DNA of 64,000 bases from Syntrophaceae bacterium. Lineage in GTDB: Bacteria; Desulfobacterota; Syntrophia; Syntrophales; PHBD01. The stretch covers positions 227,990-291,989 of the forward strand of contig JABLXX010000004.1 in assembly GCA_013177825.1 (NCBI GenBank). The letters are read 5' to 3'. Of this stretch, positions 3,624 through 29,586 are shown piece after piece. The number at the start of each line of letters is the position of its first letter. Within the stretch, counting starts at the first letter, position 1. The translations under genes and the position numbers were made by a program. A model generated the notes under the pieces. It had not been told where the DNA came from. It saw only the letters and a list, made by a program, of their open reading frames with translations, and ran no database searches.

Positions 3624-4883
3624 ATGGAACCCTATTTCAATGACCGGGAGACGTTGTCCCGGGAGGAGAGACTCAGGAAGCAGATTGAGGCGCTTTCCCG
3701 GATGATGGAGAATGCCGGCCGCCGGTCGCCGGTCCTTCGGAAACAGTTCGAAGACCGGAAGATCAGCCCTTCCGACATCAGAACGACGGCGGATTTCGAG
3801 CGGCTGCCGGTCGTCTCCCGGGAAAGGCTCGTGGAAATGGAACTGCAAAACCCGCCTTACGCGGGCCTGGCGAACCCCGACGCACCCATCGACCGGATCT
3901 TCATTTCCCCCGGTCCCGTATACGAGCCCCATCTGGGCGAGGAGGATGTCCTCTGGGCCCGGGCCTACAAGGCCGCCGGCCTCGGGAAGGGAGACGTGGT
4001 CCTGAACGCCTTCTCCTACCACATGGTCGCGGCGGGGCTGACGTTCCACGGGGGGCTGCGCAAGGTCGGCGCAACGGTCATCCCGTCGGGGGCCTCGAGC
4101 GCCCAGGCCCAGGTGCAACTGATCCGCGACCTCGGCGCCACGGCCTACACGGGGACGCCGAGTTTCCTGATGGCGATCATCGAGAAGTCAAAGGAGATGG
4201 GGTACGACTTTCGGAAGGACTTCCGGGTCCGGAAGGCCTGCTTCGCCGCGGAGCCCCTGTTTCCTGCCATGCGCGCGCGCTTCGAGACGGAGTTCGGCAT
4301 TGACACCTACCAGATGTACGGAGCGACGGAGGTGGGGGACGTCGCCTACGAGTGCCGGGAAAAGAAGGGCTGGCACCTCTGCGAGGAGGTTTACGTCGAG
4401 ATCGTCGATCCCGCGACGGGGAAGGCCGTTCCGCCGGGGACCCCGGGAGAGATCGTCGTGACGCGGTTCAACGACGTCTTCTATCTCTTCCGCTTCGGCA
4501 CGGGTGACCTCTCCCGGATCGTCGAGGAGCCCTGCCCATGCGGCAGGACCTCGTACCGCCTGGCCGGGATCCTGGGCCGGGTGGGAGACGCCGTGAAGGT
4601 CCGGGGCCTCTTCGTCGCCCCGAGCCAGCTGCAGCAGGTGGCCGCGAAGTTCCCGGAGATCCGGAAGTTCCAGGTCGTCGTCGGCCGCAGCGGCGACAAG
4701 GACCTGCTGGAGGTACGAATCGATCCGCAGGAAGTCCCGGGCGACCCCTCCTCCCTGGAGCAGGCTTTCGAAAAGGTTTTCCGCGAGATCTGCACCGTCC
4801 GGATCGACCGGATCGAGTTCCTGAAGCCGGGGACCCTCGCGGACGACGACAAGCGGATCATAGACGAACGGGAGTGGAAGTAG
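3624..4883 (+). CDS. Phenylacetate-CoA-ligase-family protein with altered ATP-binding loop
   Basis: 419 residues from the ATG at 3624, which is preceded by AAGGAGGACATC; family members are about 430 residues. PaaK-type enzymes adenylate a carboxylic acid and transfer it to CoA. The central MYGATE motif, the FGTGDL motif, the zinc-like CPCGR and the C-terminal DDDKRIIDE all match the family. The usual Ser/Thr/Gly-rich phosphate loop (SSSGTTG) is missing: the equivalent stretch reads FISPGPVYEPHLGEED. The true PaaK at 60075 keeps that loop. The protein may therefore be a divergent ligase subgroup with a different substrate or chemistry. It stands alone between the amtB leader and uvrB, so context does not identify the substrate. 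Confidence 0.85.
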   Translation: MEPYFNDRETLSREERLRKQIEALSRMMENAGRRSPVLRKQFEDRKISPSDIRTTADFERLPVVSRERLVEMELQNPPYAGLANPDAPIDRIFISPGPVYEPHLGEEDVLWARAYKAAGLGKGDVVLNAFSYHMVAAGLTFHGGLRKVGATVIPSGASSAQAQVQLIRDLGATAYTGTPSFLMAIIEKSKEMGYDFRKDFRVRKACFAAEPLFPAMRARFETEFGIDTYQMYGATEVGDVAYECREKKGWHLCEEVYVEIVDPATGKAVPPGTPGEIVVTRFNDVFYLFRFGTGDLSRIVEEPCPCGRTSYRLAGILGRVGDAVKVRGLFVAPSQLQQVAAKFPEIRKFQVVVGRSGDKDLLEVRIDPQEVPGDPSSLEQAFEKVFREICTVRIDRIEFLKPGTLADDDKRIIDEREWK

Positions 4884-4915
4884 GAATCACCGGCGGGAGC
4901 GGTTCTTTTTCCGCC

Positions 4916-4976
4916 CGGGCGGTTGGGCGGGTTTCTGCCGAGCCGCCGGAACTCCGGCGGCAAGGCCCGCCGCCCG
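4916..4976. terminator. Candidate bidirectional terminator between convergent genes
   Basis: An 8-bp GC hairpin (GCCGCCGG, loop AACT, CCGGCGGC; 4942-4961) is nested inside outer arms CGGGCGG (4916-4922) and CCGCCCG (4970-4976). It sits in the 96-bp gap between the convergent ligase-like gene and uvrB. No long T-tract follows on either strand, so intrinsic termination would be weak. Confidence 0.4.
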
Positions 4977-4979
4977 TTC

Positions 4980-6989
4980 TCAGCCCATTTCCCCCATGGC
5001 CAGCATCAGGTCGGTCAGCTCCCGGATGCGGTCCCGCAGCTCCGCGGCCTTTTCGAATTCGAGGTCTTTCGCCGCGGCCTTCATCTCCTTCTTCAGTCGC
5101 TCGATGACGGCGGTGATCTCCTCCTCCGTGCCGTAGGCTGCTCCAGGCTCCTTCACGACGGGGACGGTGACGTAGTCCGCCTCGTAAACCGAGGAGAGGA
5201 CGTCGGAGATGGACTTCCGGATGCTCTCGGGCGTGATGCCGTGCTCCTCGTTATAGCGATGCTGGATCTCCCGGCGGCGTTTCGTCTCCGAAAGGCAGGA
5301 CCGGATGGCCTGGGTCTCCCGGTCGGCATAGAGGATGACCCGGCCGGCGACGTTCCGGGCGGCCCGGCCGCTGGTCTGGATGAGGGATCGCTCGGAGCGG
5401 AGGAATCCCTCCTTGTCGGCGTCCAGGATCGCCACCAGGGACACCTCCGGGATGTCCAGCCCCTCCCGGAGAAGGTTCACCCCAACCAGGACGTCGAACT
5501 CGCCGAGACGGAGGTCCCGGATGATGGCCACCCGCTCGAGGGTCTGGATGTCCGAGTGGAGATAGCGGACCCGGACGCCCAGTTCCTGGTAGTAGCGGGT
5601 CAGGTGCTCCGCCATCCGCTTCGTCAGGGTCGTCACGAGGACCCGCTCCCCCCGGTCCGTCCGTTCCCGGATCTCCGCCAGGAGGTCGTCCACCTGGCCC
5701 GCCACGGGCTTGACGGCCAGCTCCGGGTCCATGAGTCCCGTGGGGCGGATGATCTGTTCGACGACGCGCCCCCGGGCCTTTTTGATTTCATATTCGGCGG
5801 GCGTCGCGGAGATGTAGAGGCGCTGCTGAGGGAATTTTTCGTACTCGTCGAAGCGGAGCGGCCGGTTGTCCAACGCCGAGGGCAGGCGGAACCCGTGGTT
5901 CACCAGGGTCTCCTTCCGGGACCGGTCCCCCCGGTACATGCCGTTCAGCTGGGGGATGGTGGCGTGGCTCTCGTCGATGATGATCAATGCGTCCTTCGGA
6001 AAGTATTCCACGAGGGTGGGCGGCGGCTCCCCGGGCCCCCGGCCCGTCAGGTGGCGCGAGTAGTTCTCGATCCCCTGGCAGTATCCCATCTCCTCCATCA
6101 TCTCCAGGTCGAAGGAGGTCCGCTGCTCCAGCCGCTGTGCCTCGAGAAGCTTCCCCTGATCCTTGAGCCAGGCCAGGCGCTCCTTCAACTCGACCCGGAT
6201 GTCCTTCACGGCCCGCTCCAGGTTGTCCCGGGTCGTGACGTAATGGCTCCCGGGATAGACGGCCATCTTGTCCACCTTCATGAGCTTCTTCCCCCGCAGG
6301 GGGTCCACCCAGGAAATGGCCTCGACGACGTCGCCGAAGAACTCGATCCGGACGGCCCGGTCTTCCTCGTAGGCCGGGAAGATCTCCACCGTGTCCCCCC
6401 GGACCCGGAAGGTTCCCCGGTGGAAGTCGATGTCGTTCCGCTCGTACTGGATCTCCACCAGGTGGCGGAGCAGGTCGTCCCGGGGCATCTCCAGGCCCTC
6501 CGCCAGGTTCACCTGCATCCCCGAGTAGGATTCGGGGGACCCCAGGCCGTAGATGCAGGAGACGCTGGCGACGATGATGACGTCGCTCCTCTCGAAGAGG
6601 GCGTGGGTGGCGGCGTGGCGCAGCTTGTCGATCTCCTCGTTGATGGACGAGTCCTTCTCGATGTAGGTGTCTGTGCTGGGGAGGTAGGCCTCGGGCTGGT
6701 AGTAGTCGTAGTAGCTGACGAAATAGTGGACGGCGTTCTCGGGGAAGAGGGACTTGAACTCGCCGTAGAGCTGGGCCGCCAGGGTCTTGTTGTGGGCCAT
6801 GATCAGGGCGGGCCGCTGGACCGCCTCGATGACCCGGGCGACGGTGAAGGTCTTCCCCGAGCCGGTGACCCCCAGGAGGACCTGGTGGGGATCGCCGCGG
6901 AGGACGCCCTCCGTCAGCGCCTCGATGGCCTGCGGCTGGTCTCCGGCGGGCTGGAATTCCGAAGTGATCTGGAAGCGGTTCATAGACAT
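4980..6989 (-). CDS. uvrB: Excinuclease ABC subunit B
   Basis: 669 residues from the ATG at 6989 (a second ATG lies at 6983), matching the usual UvrB length of about 670. UvrB is the damage-verifying helicase-like subunit of nucleotide excision repair. Walker A GVTGSGKT is at 40-47. The beta-hairpin region is rich in YDYYQPEAY. The DESH box sits in [16 protein letters not shown], and the helicase motifs TSGRAARN and [15 protein letters not shown] are intact. The C-terminal UvrC-interacting UVR domain is present ([13 protein letters not shown]). It is monocistronic and convergent with the preceding gene. A GGAGG lies about 16 nt upstream of the ATG, further away than usual. Confidence 0.98.
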
Positions 6990-21738: not shown

Positions 21739-22371
21739 ATGGAGGAAGCGACCCACAGCGACAAGTCGGGAGACACGGTGGAAAGGATCCTGCGCGCCGC
21801 CGCCGAGGTCTTCGCTGAATCAGGATTCCCAGGGGCCCGGGTCGACGAGATCGCCCGGCGCGCCGGCGTCAACAAGGCTATGCTGTACTATCATGTAGGC
21901 GACAAGAAAAACCTTTACGAGGAAGTTGTTCGAAGCATCATCGGCAAGACGGCGGAGCGGCTCGAAGAGGAAATCGGACAGGCGGATACCCCGGAGCGTA
22001 AAATGAGGATTTACATGCGTCGCTTCGCCGCCACCCTGGACGAAAACCCCGTCATTCCGCCCATCATGATGCGAGAGCTGGCCTCCGGCGGGCAGACGCT
22101 GCCCCAGGCGGCGGTGGAGGGGGTGGCCCGGGTGGTGTCGCTCGTCTCGACCATTCTGGACGAAGGGGTCAAAAAGGGCGTCTTCAGGTCCGTCAACCCC
22201 TTTCTCATCCATATGCTTGTGGCGGGGGCCTTTATCGTCTTCAAGGTGACGACGCCGGTCCGGGAGAGGGCGGAGTTCATTCCCGATGAGGTCCGCAGGA
22301 TGCCCCGGGAACTTGCAGGTTCCGTTCTCGAGGATGTCGAAGAGATGGTTCTCAGGGCGATCAGGAAATAA
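21739..22371 (+). CDS. TetR-family transcriptional regulator (CecR-like context)
   Basis: 210 residues; ATG preceded by ATGGAGGTGAATC. The N-terminal helix-turn-helix runs from ERILRAAAEVFAESGFPGARV to GVNKAMLYYHVGDKKNLYEEV, with the usual recognition-helix Tyr-Tyr-His. The C-terminal domain is helical and ligand-binding, with the specificity not visible. It is first in a chain of closely spaced exporter genes and follows a 44-bp dyad, so it most likely represses the operon and is relieved by a pump substrate. In E. coli, CecR (YbiH) heads the homologous ybhGFSR operon. The TolC-type gene starts 12 bp after its stop. Confidence 0.93.
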   Translation: MEEATHSDKSGDTVERILRAAAEVFAESGFPGARVDEIARRAGVNKAMLYYHVGDKKNLYEEVVRSIIGKTAERLEEEIGQADTPERKMRIYMRRFAATLDENPVIPPIMMRELASGGQTLPQAAVEGVARVVSLVSTILDEGVKKGVFRSVNPFLIHMLVAGAFIVFKVTTPVRERAEFIPDEVRRMPRELAGSVLEDVEEMVLRAIRK

Positions 22372-22383
22372 GGAGGGCGCACA

Positions 22384-23697
22384 ATGAAAGAAAAGTCAAT
22401 CCATGCATCCATGATCCTGGCCGGGCTGCTCCTGCTCCTGGGAAGCACGTCCTGCCTCGCGGGGGAGAAGATGACGCTTCAGGAAAGCATCGACATCGCC
22501 CTGAAGCAAAGCCTGCTCGTCCATTCGGCCCGGGAGGGCGTCGCGGGCGCCCGGGCCCAGGAGCGGGAGGCCTTAACGGGATTCCTGCCGAAGTTCTCGA
22601 CGTCTTACGGCTACACCCGCCTCAACGAGGACCCCGGCATGACCGTTCCCAGCCTTGGCTCGTTCACGACGGGGACCCGGGACAACTACACCTGGGCCAC
22701 GGAGGTCCGGCAGCCCCTCTTCGCCGGCGGCGGGATCGTGGCCAACTGGCGCGCCGGCAAGCTGGGCGCGGAGATCGCCCGGACGGACGAGCAGGCCGCC
22801 GTCAACGACCTCGTCCTGGACGTCAAGACGGCCTACTTCAACGTTCTGAAGGTGCAGCGTCTCGTGGAGGCGGCCCGGCAGGCGGTGGAACTGCTCCAGG
22901 CCCACCGGAACATGGCGAAGGACTTTTTCGACGTCGGGATGGTGCCCAAGAACGATGTCCTCCGGGCGGAGGTGGAGCTGGCCAACGGGAAGTACAACCT
23001 GACGAAGGCGGAGAACGTCCTCGAGATGGCGAAGGCGAACTTCAACACCATCCTGCGCCGGGACGTCAATGAACGGGTCGATCTGGAAGATATCCCGGAT
23101 CTCCGGCCCTTCGACGGCTCCCTGGCGGACGTTCGGAAGCAGGCCTTGGAAAGCCGTCCCGAAATCAAGTCCTACGCCATGAAGACCGAGCAGGCCGACC
23201 GGTACGTGGACGCCGCGCGGAGCGAGTTCTTCCCCACCATCAGCGCCGTCGGCCACTACGAGCGTTTCGGCGACACCCCTGGCGTTTCCGGCAGTCCCTA
23301 TCAGGACGCCGAGAGCTGGTACGTGGGGGGCATGCTGAACTGGAACTTCTGGGAATGGGGCCGCACGAAGTACCGGGTGGACTCCGTGAAGAGCCGCCGG
23401 AACCAGGTGCAGGACGCCCTGGAGGGCATGAAGGACCGGGTTACCCTGGAGGTCAAGAACGCCTGGCTCCAGCTCGATGAGGCCCGGAAGCAGGTGGGGG
23501 TGACGAAGAAGGCCATCGAGCAGGCGGAGGAGAATTTTCGCATGAGCCAGGAACGCTATCGCGAGCAGGTCGGGACGGCCACGGAGGTCCTGGACGCCCA
23601 GACGCTCCTGACCCGGTCCCGGTCTGATCACGCCGGCGCCCTGGCGGATTATCACATCGGTCTGGCCCGGCTGGAGCGGGCCATGGGGCGCCGATAG
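22384..23697 (+). CDS. TolC-family outer-membrane efflux channel
   Basis: 437 residues with an N-terminal signal peptide ending around residue 27. The mature protein has the TolC layout of two repeats of beta-strands and long coiled-coil helices. Repeat 1 contains MTLQESIDIALKQSLLV and ANLNWR-like helices; repeat 2 contains SRPEIKSYAMKTEQADRYVDAARSEFFPTIS split by the usual loops, and the protein ends LADYHIGLARLERAMG. It forms the trimeric exit duct for the exporter encoded downstream. A Cys near the signal cut (STSC) is a poor lipobox match, so I do not call it a lipoprotein. HlyD-type adaptor follows after 15 bp. Confidence 0.93.
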   Translation: MKEKSIHASMILAGLLLLLGSTSCLAGEKMTLQESIDIALKQSLLVHSAREGVAGARAQEREALTGFLPKFSTSYGYTRLNEDPGMTVPSLGSFTTGTRDNYTWATEVRQPLFAGGGIVANWRAGKLGAEIARTDEQAAVNDLVLDVKTAYFNVLKVQRLVEAARQAVELLQAHRNMAKDFFDVGMVPKNDVLRAEVELANGKYNLTKAENVLEMAKANFNTILRRDVNERVDLEDIPDLRPFDGSLADVRKQALESRPEIKSYAMKTEQADRYVDAARSEFFPTISAVGHYERFGDTPGVSGSPYQDAESWYVGGMLNWNFWEWGRTKYRVDSVKSRRNQVQDALEGMKDRVTLEVKNAWLQLDEARKQVGVTKKAIEQAEENFRMSQERYREQVGTATEVLDAQTLLTRSRSDHAGALADYHIGLARLERAMGRR

Positions 23698-23712: not shown

Positions 23713-24726
23713 ATGAAAAAGAAACGGATTGTCATCGCGGTTTTCCTGGTCCTCCTGGCGGGTGTGGGCGCCCTCGTCTACTGGGGCCAGTGGAGGAACC
23801 AGCGGCAGGAGCTGTACTATTCGGGAACCATCGAGGCCACGAACGCCAACCTGGCCTTCCAGGCCCCGGGACGGGTCGTCCTGGTTGCCGTCAGGGAGGG
23901 AGAGGCCGTGGCGAAGGACCAGTTCCTGGCGGAGCTGGAACCGTCGGAACTGAAGGCCCGGCAAGAGCAGGCGAAGGCAAACCTGGAGCGGGCCCGGCAC
24001 GTCCAGGCACAGGCCGGGACGGTTCACGGCATCTACCGGGAGACCCTGCCTGCCGACGTGCTCAGGGCCGAGGCGAACCTCAAGGCCGTTCGGAGCGCTG
24101 CGGAGGACAGCCGGAAGAATGCCGCCCGATACGAGCAGCTCTTTTCCCGGGGGGTGGTGACGGAGAAGGAGCGGGACGCAGTCCGGCTCAAGGCCGATAC
24201 CGACCGAGATCGGCTGGCCGAGGCCGAGGCGGTCCTCGTCCAGGCAAAATCGAACCTGAAAAAGATCGATGCGGCCCAGCAAGACCTGGCGGGCGCCCGT
24301 TCCGCCGCGGAGGCGGCCCTGGCCTCCCTGGACCAGGCAACGATCCAGTCGGGCTATGCGAAACTGTCGGCTCCCTTTGCGGGCATCGTCACCAGCCGGA
24401 ACGTCGAGCCGGGTGAGGTCGTCACGGCGGGTCGGGAGGTCCTGACCGTCACCGATCTCTCCACGGTGGACCTGAAGATCTTCGTCGACGAGACGGAGAT
24501 CGGCAAGGTCAAGCCCGGACAGAAGGTGGAGGTGAAGGTGGACACCTTCCCGAAGAAAACCTTCGAGGGCCGGGTGACCTTCATTTCTCCCGAGGGCGAG
24601 TTCACGCCCAAGATCATCCAGACGAAGAAGGAGAGGGTGAAGCTCGTCTACCTGGTGAAAGTGAATGTGCCCAACCCGAACCTGGAGCTGAAGTCGGGCA
24701 TGCCGGCGGACGCCTGGCTGAAGTGA
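23713..24726 (+). CDS. HlyD/YbhG-family periplasmic adaptor
   Basis: 337 residues. One N-terminal membrane anchor (residues 5-24) is followed by a split lipoyl domain (NLAFQAPGRVVLVAVREGEAV and LSAPFAGIVTSRNVEPGEVV) around a long alpha-helical hairpin of about 130 residues, then a beta-barrel domain (VDLKIFVDETEIGKVKPGQ). It bridges the inner-membrane ABC transporter and the TolC channel. The order TetR-TolC-HlyD-ATPase-ATPase-permease-permease matches the YbhG exporter class. Its TGA overlaps the region where the next gene starts, indicating translational coupling. Confidence 0.94.
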   Translation: MKKKRIVIAVFLVLLAGVGALVYWGQWRNQRQELYYSGTIEATNANLAFQAPGRVVLVAVREGEAVAKDQFLAELEPSELKARQEQAKANLERARHVQAQAGTVHGIYRETLPADVLRAEANLKAVRSAAEDSRKNAARYEQLFSRGVVTEKERDAVRLKADTDRDRLAEAEAVLVQAKSNLKKIDAAQQDLAGARSAAEAALASLDQATIQSGYAKLSAPFAGIVTSRNVEPGEVVTAGREVLTVTDLSTVDLKIFVDETEIGKVKPGQKVEVKVDTFPKKTFEGRVTFISPEGEFTPKIIQTKKERVKLVYLVKVNVPNPNLELKSGMPADAWLK

Positions 24727-24734
24727 GGTATGCC

Positions 24735-25487
24735 GTGGCGCCCTTTGTTTCCGTGGAGAATGTGTCCATGCGGTTCGGTGTCGTCGAGGCCGTCCGGGAG
24801 GTGTCCCTCGCGGTGGAGGAGGGGACCCTCTTCGGCCTGGTCGGCTCCGACGGGGCGGGGAAATCGACCCTGCTGCGCATGGCGGCCACCATGATCGCAC
24901 CCCTGGCCGGGCGGATCACCATCGATGGCCTCGACGTTGTTAAGGACCGGAAGAAGGTGAAGCCCCTCATCGGCTACATGCCCCAGCGCTTCGGCCTCTA
25001 CGCGGACCTGACGGTGGACGAGAACCTGCGCTTCTTCATGGATGTCTTCAACATTCCCCGGGCGGAGCGGATCCGCCGTCGGGAGAAATACCTCGGGTTC
25101 TCCAACCTCCTTCCCTTTGTCGACCGCCCGGCGGGAAACCTCTCCGGCGGGATGAAGCAGAAGCTGGGACTGGCCTGCGTGCTGGTCCACGAGCCACGGG
25201 TCCTCATCCTGGACGAGCCGACCAACGGCGTCGATCCCGTCTCGCGGCAGGAATTCTGGGACATCCTGAAGCAGATGCGGCAGGAGGGCATGACGATCCT
25301 GGTCTCGACGGCCTACCTGGACGAGGGGGAGAAGTGCGACCGGCTGGCCCTGATGCACAAGGCGAGCCTGATCGAGACGGCTACCCCGGCGGACGTCCGG
25401 GCGGACTTCCCCTCCCTGGAGGAGGCCATGATCGCCCGGATCCGGGACGTGGACGAGGAACTGGCAAATGAAGCCTTCCAGCGGTGA
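24735..25487 (+). CDS. ABC exporter ATPase 1 (YbhF N-half-like), H-loop His replaced
   Basis: 250 residues from GTG 24735, which has GTGAGG six bases upstream; GTG 24723, overlapping the previous stop, is an alternative. Walker A is GSDGAGKST, the signature LSGGMKQK is canonical and Walker B reads VLILDEPTNGVD with the catalytic Glu. The H-loop, normally STHYMDEAE, reads STAYLDEGE, so the switch His is Ala. This fits an asymmetric heterodimer with ATPase 2, whose signature is degenerate instead. In E. coli YbhF the two ATPases are one fused protein; here they are separate genes overlapping by 20 bp. Confidence 0.93.
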   Translation: MAPFVSVENVSMRFGVVEAVREVSLAVEEGTLFGLVGSDGAGKSTLLRMAATMIAPLAGRITIDGLDVVKDRKKVKPLIGYMPQRFGLYADLTVDENLRFFMDVFNIPRAERIRRREKYLGFSNLLPFVDRPAGNLSGGMKQKLGLACVLVHEPRVLILDEPTNGVDPVSRQEFWDILKQMRQEGMTILVSTAYLDEGEKCDRLALMHKASLIETATPADVRADFPSLEEAMIARIRDVDEELANEAFQR

Positions 25488-26223
25488 TGCCATCGCCGTT
25501 CAGGAACTGGAGAAGCGGTTCGGCGACTTCGTTGCGGTGAACCGGATCACCTTTTCGGTGAAGCGGGGCGAGATCTTCGGCTTTCTCGGCTCCAACGGCT
25601 CGGGCAAGTCCACGACGATCCGCATGCTCTGCGGCATCCTGAGCCCCACCTCCGGCCGGGGCGAGGTGGCGGGGATCGACATCTTCCGGGAGCCCGAGCG
25701 GGTCAAGGGCGTGATCGGCTACATGTCCCAGAAGTTTTCCCTCTACGAAGACCTGACGCCCGCGGAGAACCTCCGCTTCTACCTGGGGATCTACGCCGTT
25801 CCGCCGGATCTCTGGGGGGAGCGGACCCGCTGGGTCCTCTCCATGGCGCGGCTGGAGGCGGTGAAGGACCGCCCCACGGGGGACCTGCCGCAGGGCTGGA
25901 AGCAGCGGCTGGCCCTGGGGTGCGCCCTCCTGCACCGGCCGGAGATCCTGTTTCTCGACGAGCCGACATCCGGGGTCGATCCGGTGACGCGCCGCCACTT
26001 CTGGGACTTCATCCGGCAGCTGGCGGACGAAGGCATCACGGTGTTCGTCACGACCCACTACATGGACGAGGCGAGGAACTGCGAGCGCCTGGTCCTCATC
26101 GACCAGGGCGCCATCGTGGCCCAGGGAAGTCCCGGGGAGATCGTCGACATGGCCTGCCCGGACCGGGAAGATGCGGACCTCAACGACGCCTTCATCAGCC
26201 TGATGGCCCGGAAGCCCTGCTGA
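25468..26223 (+). CDS. ABC exporter ATPase 2 (YbhF C-half-like), degenerate signature motif
   Basis: 251 residues, starting inside the end of ATPase 1. Walker A GSNGSGKST is at 41-49, Walker B is ILFLDEPTSGVD and the H-loop TTHYMDEAR keeps its His. The signature motif is LPQGWKQR, not LSGGxxQR. Since each ATP site combines the Walker motifs of one subunit with the signature of the other, the His-less ATPase 1 faces this altered signature, leaving one impaired and one normal site. It should power the two ABC-2 permeases encoded downstream. A protease-inhibitor-like gene intervenes before the permeases. Confidence 0.93.
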   Translation: MKPSSGDAIAVQELEKRFGDFVAVNRITFSVKRGEIFGFLGSNGSGKSTTIRMLCGILSPTSGRGEVAGIDIFREPERVKGVIGYMSQKFSLYEDLTPAENLRFYLGIYAVPPDLWGERTRWVLSMARLEAVKDRPTGDLPQGWKQRLALGCALLHRPEILFLDEPTSGVDPVTRRHFWDFIRQLADEGITVFVTTHYMDEARNCERLVLIDQGAIVAQGSPGEIVDMACPDREDADLNDAFISLMARKPC

Positions 26224-26256
26224 GAAGAGCGGGAAAAAAGAAAGGAGGATCGAGAC

Positions 26257-26685
26257 ATGAAGAAGGGATGGATGCTGTTTCTGGTTTTTATCATAACGAT
26301 GGTCTTGGCTCCGGCGATTCAGGCCGCGCCGGGAGACGGCCGGGCGGGGGCGGGCCGGGTCGGGGGAGTCGGGCCGGTCTTCACCGATCCGAATCAGCCG
26401 GTTGAAGTGGCGGCGGGGGAAACCTTCCGCATCGTCCTCGACTCCAACCGAACGACGGGCTACGGGTGGCAGCTCGCGGAAACGCCCGACGAAGCGGTGG
26501 TGAAGAAGGTCCACAACCGCTATCGGGTACCGAGGGTGAAGCGTCCGGGCGCCGGCGGGCAGGAAGTCTGGCGGTTTCAGGCCGTGAAGCCGGGGACGGC
26601 GGAGATCCGGATGGTTTACGTCCGCTCCTGGGAAAAGAGCGTCGAACCCGCCCGGACGGCTGTTTTCAAGGTCAACGTGAAATGA
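26257..26685 (+). CDS. Chagasin-like (I42 family) protease inhibitor, exported
   Basis: 142 residues; ATG preceded by AAGGAGGATCGAGAC. A signal peptide covers residues 1-24 (cut near IQAAPG). The three inhibitor loops of the chagasin fold are recognisable: NRTTGYGW (64-71; family NPTTGYxW), GAGGQEVWRF (98-107; GxGGxxxWxF) and RSWE (123-126; RPWE). Chagasins inhibit papain-type (C1) cysteine peptidases. A Gly/Arg-rich stretch (residues 27-40) precedes the domain. The gene lies between the ATPase and permease genes of one exporter, all in one direction, so it is co-expressed with the pump. No C1 peptidase is in the window, so the target may be foreign. Confidence 0.88.
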   Translation: MKKGWMLFLVFIITMVLAPAIQAAPGDGRAGAGRVGGVGPVFTDPNQPVEVAAGETFRIVLDSNRTTGYGWQLAETPDEAVVKKVHNRYRVPRVKRPGAGGQEVWRFQAVKPGTAEIRMVYVRSWEKSVEPARTAVFKVNVK

Positions 26686-26822
26686 AGCTGCTGAGCGTTG
26701 CGCCGCGAGGTTGCGCGGACCCGTCGCCCGCCGGTTTTCCGGTGAAAGCTGCCATGAAACGGCAGGGGGAAACGCGCAGTCGTCGCCCTGTTTCAACGTT
26801 CGGAAAAGCAGACGCCTGAGGA

Positions 26823-27962
26823 ATGATCATGAACCCCGTCCGCGTCCAGGCCATCATCCGCAAGGAGTTCTATCACCTGATCCGGGACTACCGGAGCCTC
26901 ATCCTGGCCTTCGCGATTCCGCTTCTCTTGATCCTCCTGTTCGGCTACGCGCTGAGCCTTGACGTGGACAACGTCGAGACGGTGGTCGTGGACCAGGACC
27001 GCACCGACCTGAGCCGGGACTTCATTCGCCGCCTCGATGCGTCACCCTATTTTCACGTGAAGGCCCACCTGGCGGACACACGCATTGTCGCCGACTGGCT
27101 CGACCGGGACCGGGCGACCGTGGCGGTCGTCATTCCCCCCGACTGGACGGAGAACCTCCGGAGCGACCGGGAGGCGCCGCTGCAGATCCTCCTGGACGGC
27201 AGCGACCCGAACTTCGCCAACATCGCCCGGGGTTACGTCAACGCCTTCGTCGAGCAGTACAACGGGAAGCTCCTGGCGGATTTCCTCACCCGCCGGGGGA
27301 TCGAGCCGATCCGGGCTCCCGTGGAGGGGCGCATCCGGGTCTGGTTCAACGAGGACCTGGAGAGCCGGAACTTCATCGTCCCCGGAATCATCGCCCTCAT
27401 CATCATGATCGTCGGGGCCATCCTGACCTCCCTGGTCATCGCCCGGGAGTACGAGAGCGGGACCATGGAGACCCTGAAGTCCCTCCCCGTCACGGGGATG
27501 GAGCTCCTGGTCGGCAAGGCGGTTCCCTACTTCTTCATCGGCCTGATCGATGTCCTGATCGCCGTCTTCATGGGACAGGTCCTCTTCGGCATCGTCATGA
27601 AGGCGAGTTTCTGGGTCATGATCCTGGCCTCGTCTCTCTACCTGTCGGTGGCCCTGGCCCTGGGGCTTCTCATCTCCACGGTCACCAAGAACCAGCTTGT
27701 GGCCAACCAGGGGGCGATCCTCCTCACCTATCTGCCGTCGCTGTTGCTGTCGAACTTCGTCTTCCCCATCGCCAACATGCCGAAGGCCCTCCAACTCCTC
27801 ACGTATATCGTACCGGCGAACTACTACATCGAGATTCTGAGCGGCATCTACCTGAAAAACCTCGGGTTCATCCAGATGTGGACGAACTTCGCGGTCCTGG
27901 GCGTCATGTTCCTGGTCCTGGCGGGGATGACCGGGGCGCTGCTGAAGAAGGAGGGCCTGTAG
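26823..27962 (+). CDS. ABC-2 type permease 1 (YbhS-like)
   Basis: 379 residues (an ATG two codons downstream is an alternative start). The layout is that of YbhS/YbhR: one N-terminal membrane span (about 24-45), a large periplasmic domain of about 150 residues, then five spans. The conserved loop EYESGTMETLKSLPVTGMEL and the late FPIANMPKALQLLTYIVPANYY segment are family hallmarks. It should form the membrane channel as a heterodimer with the next gene product. It follows the I42 inhibitor after 137 bp, the largest gap inside this operon, in which I see no terminator. Confidence 0.95.
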   Translation: MIMNPVRVQAIIRKEFYHLIRDYRSLILAFAIPLLLILLFGYALSLDVDNVETVVVDQDRTDLSRDFIRRLDASPYFHVKAHLADTRIVADWLDRDRATVAVVIPPDWTENLRSDREAPLQILLDGSDPNFANIARGYVNAFVEQYNGKLLADFLTRRGIEPIRAPVEGRIRVWFNEDLESRNFIVPGIIALIIMIVGAILTSLVIAREYESGTMETLKSLPVTGMELLVGKAVPYFFIGLIDVLIAVFMGQVLFGIVMKASFWVMILASSLYLSVALALGLLISTVTKNQLVANQGAILLTYLPSLLLSNFVFPIANMPKALQLLTYIVPANYYIEILSGIYLKNLGFIQMWTNFAVLGVMFLVLAGMTGALLKKEGL

Positions 27963-27963
27963 G

Positions 27964-29085
27964 ATGAACCGGCTGCGTATCCGCGAACTCGTCCGCAAGG
28001 AGTTCCTCAGCCTCTTCCGGGACCCGAAGAACCGGCGCATCCTCGTCATTGCGCCCATCATCCAGATCCTCGTCTTCGGCTACGTGGTGAACTACGACAT
28101 CCGCCACATCCGCGTCGCCTGGCTGGACCAGGCGCAGACCCGGGAGAGCCGCCTGCTGGCGGAGAACTTCCAGGGGAACGGGATCTTCGACATCACCCAC
28201 CCCGTTCGCGATACCCGGGCGCTGGAAGATCTTCTCCTCAAGGGGAAGGTGGACCTGGCGGTCAAGGTGGCCCCCGACATGAGCCGGCAAATCCGCCGGG
28301 GCGAGACGTCGGAGGTCCAGATCCTAGCCGACGGCACCATGAGCAACATGGCATCCGTCCGGATCGCCTACACCATGACCGTCCTGGACCGGTACAACCG
28401 GACCCTGATCCGGGAACTCAACCCGATGCATATGGACTACGCCCGGGTCGACGCGCGGATCCGCACCTGGTACAACGCGAACCTGGACAGCCCCCACTTC
28501 TTCGTTCCGGGGATCGTCGCCTTCATCGTGATGCTGATCTCGCTGCTCCTCACCTCCATCGCCATCATCAAGGAGAAGGAGGCCGGGACGATGGAGCAGC
28601 TCATCGTCACGCCGCTCAAGCCGGTGGAGCTGATCATCGGCAAGACGATCCCCTACATCGTCATCTCTTTCGCCCAGATGATCGTGGTGACGATCCTGGC
28701 GGTCTTCTGGTTCGAGATCCCCCTGGAGGGGTCGATCGGCCTCCTGGCCATTGCCACCTGCCTCTTTCTTCTCTCCACCCTCGGCATGGGCCTCTTCATC
28801 TCCACGGTGTCCTCGACGCAGCAGCAGGCCATGATGGCAACCTTCTTCGTCATCCTGCCCTTCTTCCTGCTCTCGGGGTTCGTCTTCCCCATCGCCAACA
28901 TGCCCGAGCCGGTCCAGTGGCTGACCTTCCTGAACCCGCTCCGCTACTTCCTCGTCATCATCCGGGGAATCTTCCTGAAGGGCGTGGGCCTGGATGTCCT
29001 CTGGCCCCAGTATGTCGCCCTCATCATCCTGGGAACCGCCGTCTTCGCCGGGGCGACGGTGCGGTTCCGGAAGCGGCTGGATTAG
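27964..29085 (+). CDS. ABC-2 type permease 2 (YbhR-like)
   Basis: 373 residues, starting one base after the stop of permease 1. It has the same plan: membrane span near residues 20-40, periplasmic domain, and five C-terminal spans. Family motifs are KEKEAGTMEQLIVTPLKPVEL, seen in two parts around the coupling helix, and FPIANMPEPVQWLTFLNPLRYF. Homologues move amphipathic compounds or cations out of the cell; E. coli YbhFSR has been linked to antibiotic and cation efflux. With permease 1, the two ATPases, the adaptor and the TolC-type channel it completes a trans-envelope exporter. The GNAT gene follows after 3 bp. Confidence 0.95.
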   Translation: MNRLRIRELVRKEFLSLFRDPKNRRILVIAPIIQILVFGYVVNYDIRHIRVAWLDQAQTRESRLLAENFQGNGIFDITHPVRDTRALEDLLLKGKVDLAVKVAPDMSRQIRRGETSEVQILADGTMSNMASVRIAYTMTVLDRYNRTLIRELNPMHMDYARVDARIRTWYNANLDSPHFFVPGIVAFIVMLISLLLTSIAIIKEKEAGTMEQLIVTPLKPVELIIGKTIPYIVISFAQMIVVTILAVFWFEIPLEGSIGLLAIATCLFLLSTLGMGLFISTVSSTQQQAMMATFFVILPFFLLSGFVFPIANMPEPVQWLTFLNPLRYFLVIIRGIFLKGVGLDVLWPQYVALIILGTAVFAGATVRFRKRLD

Positions 29086-29088
29086 GAT

Positions 29089-29586
29089 ATGAAATTTCTG
29101 ATTCGCATCTGCACGATGGAAGACTGCGCCATGCTGGCCGAAACGATCCGGATGTCTTTCCGGACGGTGGCGGAGCGGTTCGGCCTGACGAAGGAGAACG
29201 CGGCCCGGCATCCCTCCAACTGCGAGGAGGACTGGGTCTTGAAGGACATGGAGCGGGGCGTCGTGTATTACGTCCTGGAGATGGGGGACCGGACCGCCGG
29301 GTGCGTCGCCTTTGAGCGGACCGACGACGCCGGGTGCTACCTGGAGCGCCTGTCGGTATTGCCCGGAAATCGACGGCAGGGCTTGGGAAAGGTGCTGGTG
29401 GAGCATGTCTTTGCCGAGGTGCGGCGTCTCGGCCTCCGCCGCGTCGGCATCGCCATGATCGCGGAGCAGGACGAGCTCAAGGCATGGTACAAGGGGTTCG
29501 GTTTCGTCGAGGGCGTCACGAAGGATTATCCCCACCTGCCGTTTCGCGTGACCTTCCTGTCTCGTGATCTTGCAGGCAGCGATTGA
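29089..29586 (+). CDS. GNAT-family N-acetyltransferase, last gene of the exporter operon
   Basis: 165 residues. The acetyl-CoA loop is LSVLPGNRRQGLGKVL, followed by AEVRRLGLRRVGIAMIAEQ and the C-terminal WYKGFGFVEG strand. It starts three bases after the second permease, so it is almost certainly translated from the same message. Acetylation of the exporter's substrate, for instance an amine-bearing drug, is a reasonable idea: modification and efflux would then share one regulator. That is inference; the acceptor site does not reveal a substrate. ORF boundaries are clear. Confidence 0.92.
   Translation: MKFLIRICTMEDCAMLAETIRMSFRTVAERFGLTKENAARHPSNCEEDWVLKDMERGVVYYVLEMGDRTAGCVAFERTDDAGCYLERLSVLPGNRRQGLGKVLVEHVFAEVRRLGLRRVGIAMIAEQDELKAWYKGFGFVEGVTKDYPHLPFRVTFLSRDLAGSD

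Follow-up and report, generated by a model that had tools for sequence, protein, structure and literature searches.

A chagasin-type inhibitor gene lies between the ATPase and permease genes of an ABC exporter in a Syntrophaceae genome, raising the question of what a peptidase inhibitor does there. A sequence-only reading of the window, the whole 64,000-nucleotide stretch of DNA analysed, had offered three answers, namely defence against an external cysteine peptidase, protection of the exporter, and export of a peptide that needs shielding.

By sequence, loops and modelled fold, the encoded protein is a member of the I42 family, as the sequence-only reading had proposed. It covers positions 2-91 of the 91 in the Pfam profile PF09394 (Inhibitor_I42), a full-length match that scores 90.2 bits (cut-off 27.2; E 1e-25), and phmmer against PDB sequences retrieved the Pseudomonas ICP (2wgn, E 1e-11) and chagasin (E 5e-9). 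An AlphaFold2 model built from two sequences gave a mean pLDDT of 74 overall, with block means mostly of 82-95 over the I42 domain. Foldseek returned EhICP2 and chagasin as the best matches of this model, with TM-scores on the target of up to 0.80, and the top 16 matches were all I42 structures or designs on an I42 scaffold; the predicted fold is the immunoglobulin-like beta fold of chagasin. The N-terminus, MKKGWMLFLVFIITMVLAPAIQA, reads by eye like a signal peptide, and the protein is probably exported, as had been suggested.

Chagasin makes its main contacts through loops L2 (NPTTG) and L6 (R91-P92-W93); deletion of T31-T32 abolishes papain inhibition, and P30A raises the Ki only about 3- to 6-fold (PMC2607524). 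All three loop motifs claimed for the window protein are present, with two prolines replaced relative to the family motifs NPTTG, GxGG and RPW (Pro to Arg in L2 and Pro to Ser in L6). Counterparts of chagasin T31/T32 and R91/W93 are retained, and the T-T, GxGG, R and W of the loops are kept in both the window species and its sister species. Cip1 of P. syringae, a bacterial homologue with a signal peptide, inhibits papain with a Ki of 3.98 nM and acts on extracellular host (plant) peptidases (PMC5014320).

Table 1 Features of the exporter operon and of the I42 gene within it (window coordinates).
Feature	Position	Strand	Remarks
TetR-family regulator, first operon gene	21739..22371	+	Pfam TetR_N 1e-13; co-directional
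TolC-type outer-membrane efflux protein	22384..23697	+	Pfam OEP 1e-67; TIGR01844 below its cut-off
HlyD/YbhG-type periplasmic adaptor	23713..24726	+	Pfam HlyD_D23 1e-25; NCBIfam best PRK03598, below cut-off
ABC ATPase 1	24723..25487	+	Pfam ABC_tran 8e-30; matches first ATPase domain of RbbA model, below cut-off
ABC ATPase 2	25468..26223	+	Pfam ABC_tran 8e-28; matches second ATPase domain of RbbA model, below cut-off
Shine-Dalgarno AGGAGG of I42 gene	26243..26248	+	8 nt before ATG; conserved in sister species
I42 (chagasin-type) inhibitor gene	26257..26685	+	142 aa; signal-like N-terminus, residues 1 to about 23; I42 domain 51-139
Loop L2, NRTTGY	26446..26463	+	Residues 64-69; family motif NPTTG (PMC2607524, PMC5014320)
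Loop L4, GAGG	26548..26559	+	Residues 98-101; family motif GxGG (PMC5014320)
Loop L6, RSW	26623..26631	+	Residues 123-125; family motif RPW (PMC2607524)
Spacer, I42 gene to permease 1	26686..26822	+	137 nt; no detectable terminator, promoter or unusual folding
ABC-2 permease 1	26823..27962	+	Pfam ABC2_membrane_3 4e-53
ABC-2 permease 2	27964..29085	+	Pfam ABC2_membrane_3 2e-48
GNAT acetyltransferase, directly after exporter	29089..29586	+	Pfam Acetyltransf_1 5e-12; 86% identical in sister species (L003)

The operon, that of an otherwise ordinary drug exporter and very tightly packed, runs from the TetR regulator through the TolC-type channel, the HlyD adaptor and two ATPases to the I42 gene and two permeases, with the GNAT gene behind them. 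Pfam assignments of the flanking genes as ABC ATPases and ABC-2 permeases bear out the position claimed for the I42 gene, which begins 33 nt downstream of ATPase 2 and ends 137 nt short of permease 1. The two ATPase genes overlap by 20 nt, ATPase 1 being equivalent to the first half of a double ATPase; several orthologous loci likewise have a TetR-like gene ahead of the exporter. A YbhFSR-type layout is present in order, comprising two ATPase domains, two ABC-2 permeases, an HlyD adaptor and a TetR regulator. However, the best NCBIfam models, RbbA for the ATPases and permeases and PRK03598 for the adaptor, all matched below their cut-offs, and with RbbA as the best model strict orthology to E. 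coli YbhFSR is therefore not claimed.

A sigma-70-type scan detected neither a promoter-like nor a terminator-like site in the gaps on either side of the I42 gene, including the independent promoter and terminator that would have spoken against the idea of co-expression; across the whole region such sites were no more frequent than in shuffled sequence. Folding of the 137-nt spacer was likewise no better than that of its shuffles (z-score -0.88). An independent transcription unit was rejected on these grounds. Together with the spacing, the lack of detected signals makes co-transcription of the I42 gene with the exporter likely, in line with the co-expression proposed earlier, and suggests that the TetR regulator probably controls it.

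Within the family, the locus was compared with one other genome, that of the sister species (G001, locus L003), where the gene order and the spacing and flanks of the I42 gene are the same, with 81% identity for the I42 protein and 90-98% for the exporter proteins. Between the two species, the I42 domain shows a dN of 0.065 and a dS of 0.45 (dN/dS 0.14, and 0.27 for the whole protein). The domain is under purifying selection, and the gene is real and maintained. Although the window genome is a 25-contig assembly, the recurrence of order, spacing and flanks in a separately assembled genome at 81% protein identity, together with dN/dS, leaves practically no room for a chance open reading frame or a misassembly that had placed the I42 gene between two exporter genes, and both were rejected. 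A recent foreign origin was also considered, but GC3 is not decisive, since the I42 gene, at 0.80, falls below the exporter genes (0.90-0.94) yet near the GNAT gene (0.84). Along window positions 24415-29571, dS against L003 steps up at the I42 gene, from 0.10-0.18 in the adaptor and ATPases to 0.42 in I42 and 0.33-0.35 in the permeases; the step may mark a recombination boundary.

Outside the genus, 40 exporter loci were taken and the ATPase-permease junction was measured wherever both genes were present (n = 36). None of these orthologous junctions carries an I42 gene; the distance between the two matches is 6-107 nt in 34 of them (median 18 nt), and the gap of about 600 nt with I42 was found only in the window's genus among the genomes examined. 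The ATPase-I42-permease order, for which recurrence in other genomes had been proposed as a check, is thus not unique to the window genome, being present in the sister species, but does not extend to the loci measured beyond the genus. The two long gaps among the 36 (about 650-750 nt) are occupied by unrelated genes, one for a SLOG-cluster-4 protein in L126 (at about 4650-5170) and one for a MarC protein in L132 (reverse strand, between ATPase 2 and permease 1), indicating that the junction accepts passengers, of which I42 is one of at least three. In L118, outside the 36, almost 4 kb of DNA with unrelated genes separates the ATPases from the permease. Locus L051 has an I42 gene and, 5.7 kb from it at the other end of a 6.2-kb contig, the start of a permease 1 with 79% identity, possibly by chance, rearrangement or assembly artefact; with unrelated genes between the two and no ATPase, it was rejected as a remnant of the arrangement and not counted. 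The window protein adds a member to the I42 family, with its gene inserted, at the level of a genus, into an exporter operon of an already known type; the open-licence literature gave no account of I42 within any exporter operon.

I42 genes were found in 42 of the 155 genomes of the order and in 65 of the 394 genomes in a sample of the phylum. At 88 loci, 69 co-directional neighbours within 250 nt fell into 45 unrelated clusters, including genes for cytochrome c assembly, NUDIX proteins, an importer-type ABC ATPase and molybdopterin oxidoreductases. The largest cluster consists of C1 papain-family peptidases, immediately adjacent to I42 at 16 of the 88 loci; within the order they adjoin it at 8 of 44 loci, against about 0.06 expected at random placement. 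A 706-aa protein (L234:142-2259, minus strand) combines an I42 domain (174-253) with a Peptidase_C1 domain that follows directly (293-502), so that the inhibitor occupies the place expected for a propeptide, possibly making the protein a self-inhibited zymogen. On genomic evidence alone, adjacency and fusion link bacterial I42 proteins with targets of the papain type. Counted per genome within the order, I42 and C1 do not co-occur significantly more often than expected (17 genomes versus 14.9 expected, p 0.45), and 25 of the 42 I42-bearing genomes of the order, the window genome among them, have no detectable C1 gene, a count weakened by MAG incompleteness; the frequent presence of I42 in genomes that lack C1 points to foreign peptidases as targets. 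In the I42 tree, the window protein falls in a well-supported, mostly C1-unlinked set, of which only L038 adjoins a C1 gene. In genus g95 (L204, L208 and L212), the gene that starts directly after I42, with a gap of zero, encodes a 196-aa protein, which in L208 is a molybdopterin-binding oxidoreductase domain protein. The I42 matches in L068 and L070 are broken by stop codons and are possibly decaying copies.

ABC exporters recur among these neighbours. A MacA-MacB-type exporter with I42 downstream is present in genus g232 in each of the seven genomes that have I42 (L196, L200, L206, L217, L218, L220 and L222), and the same run occurs, with a more divergent I42, in G114 (L062) of the window's own order. 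The view that protease inhibitors are not a normal part of efflux operons is broadly right, except that MacAB-type exporters have an adjacent I42 in two other lineages. Exporter-adjacent I42 perhaps arose three times, with different exporter families. Because ABC transporters are abundant, I42 neighbours very varied and such cases few, the linkage is only suggestive. That ABC exporters of several families repeatedly recruited periplasmic I42 as an accessory, guarding the channel across the envelope or the exported cargo against foreign peptidases, is a doubtful generalisation; were it true, the window operon and the MacAB-I42 runs would be independent instances of it.

On balance, we consider it probable, from sequence and by analogy, that the protein is a Sec-exported chagasin-type (MEROPS I42) inhibitor of foreign C1A peptidases and a genus-level passenger of the operon instead of a part of the pump. 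Under this explanation, the ancestor of the genus would already have carried a YbhFSR-like exporter operon, and the I42 gene would have entered it at the ATPase-permease junction, thereby coming to share the exporter's transcription, probably under the TetR regulator. The protein would be exported through Sec to the periplasm or beyond, where its loops would wedge into the active-site cleft of papain-family (C1A) cysteine peptidases in tight-binding inhibition, much as the secreted Pseudomonas Cip1 acts against plant peptidases (PMC5014320). The peptidases would come from other microbes. Neither PF00112 (C1A) nor PF03051 (C1B) matched anything in the window genome (G000), which is rated 100% complete, making a foreign target the likeliest; the statement that the window encodes no papain-type peptidase thus extends to the whole genome, and the suggested defence against an external cysteine peptidase fits this absence. 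Against the passenger explanation stand the substitution of both loop prolines (NRTTG, RSW), the lack of a significant genome-level association of I42 with C1 in the order, and the MacAB-I42 cases, which leave a functional tie to export possible.

A partnership in which I42 shields the adaptor, the outer-membrane channel or an exported peptide, its position in the operon being selected, would account for the retention of that position in both species of the genus, and the MacA-MacB-I42 runs in g232 and G114, with linkage arising perhaps three times, could be read in the same direction. Yet the exporter is old, with a permease-1 homologue (E 1e-60 or better) in 130 of the 155 genomes of the order, and all 36 measured junctions outside the genus do without I42. 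Exporter-linked cases are few among the 88 loci with their highly varied neighbours, the exporters involved belong to different families, and the operon showed no gene for a peptide precursor. Such a partnership is therefore quite unlikely; nothing was found that points to protection of the exporter or to a co-exported peptide, and the other genes at the same junction in two genomes also speak against a specific partnership. Only a little less unlikely is the reading that the protein, periplasmic and of chagasin fold, no longer inhibits peptidases and serves another role, such as binding envelope proteins. The two proline replacements, the lack of a C1 peptidase in the window genome and the many I42 genes of the phylum without a C1 neighbour would suit such a loss, but both species retain T-T, GxGG, R and W, the effect of P30A on chagasin is small (PMC2607524), and the I42 domain is under purifying selection. 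Adjacent C1 genes, the I42-C1 fusion and the single C1 gene in the sister species (G001, contig C8) might instead suggest a regulator of the cell's own papain-like peptidase, the role of chagasin in trypanosomes. This is very unlikely for the window protein: the sister-species C1 gene is on another contig from the I42 gene, and an own peptidase was rejected as the target because C1A and C1B are absent from the window genome, in which no C1 gene was found either beside I42 or elsewhere.

The passenger explanation illustrates how a gene for a probably defensive inhibitor can become lodged in a conserved operon for transport and come under that operon's regulation, and for the exporter it advises caution against inferring function from adjacency. 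Across the phylum, the very varied sites of chagasin homologues, their recurrent pairing or fusion with C1 and their frequent occurrence without it give a testable picture.

Among known systems, the operon resembles E. coli ybiH-ybhG-ybhF-ybhS-ybhR (CecR/YbhFSR, PMC7190983) in its order of TetR regulator, adaptor, ATPase and two permeases, and differs in having the two ATPase domains as two genes, a TolC-type gene, and the I42 gene inserted before the first permease. The MacA-MacB-I42 runs likewise have I42 downstream of an ABC exporter, but of the MacB/FtsX type, with I42 placed behind the permease, mostly at a distance of 100-200 nt, and not between ATPase and permease. With Pseudomonas ICP/Cip1 (PDB 2wgn, PMC5014320), the window protein shares the family, the three loop motifs, a stand-alone domain of similar size and, as predicted for the window protein and as in Cip1, a signal peptide; unlike them, it has NRTTG and RSW in place of NPTTG and RPW, its gene lies inside an exporter operon, and its inhibitory activity is predicted. 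Its predicted model shares the fold (TM-score on target 0.80 to 2nnr) and loop order of Trypanosoma cruzi chagasin, which, unlike the window protein, has no signal peptide and controls an endogenous peptidase, whereas the window host has no C1 peptidase.
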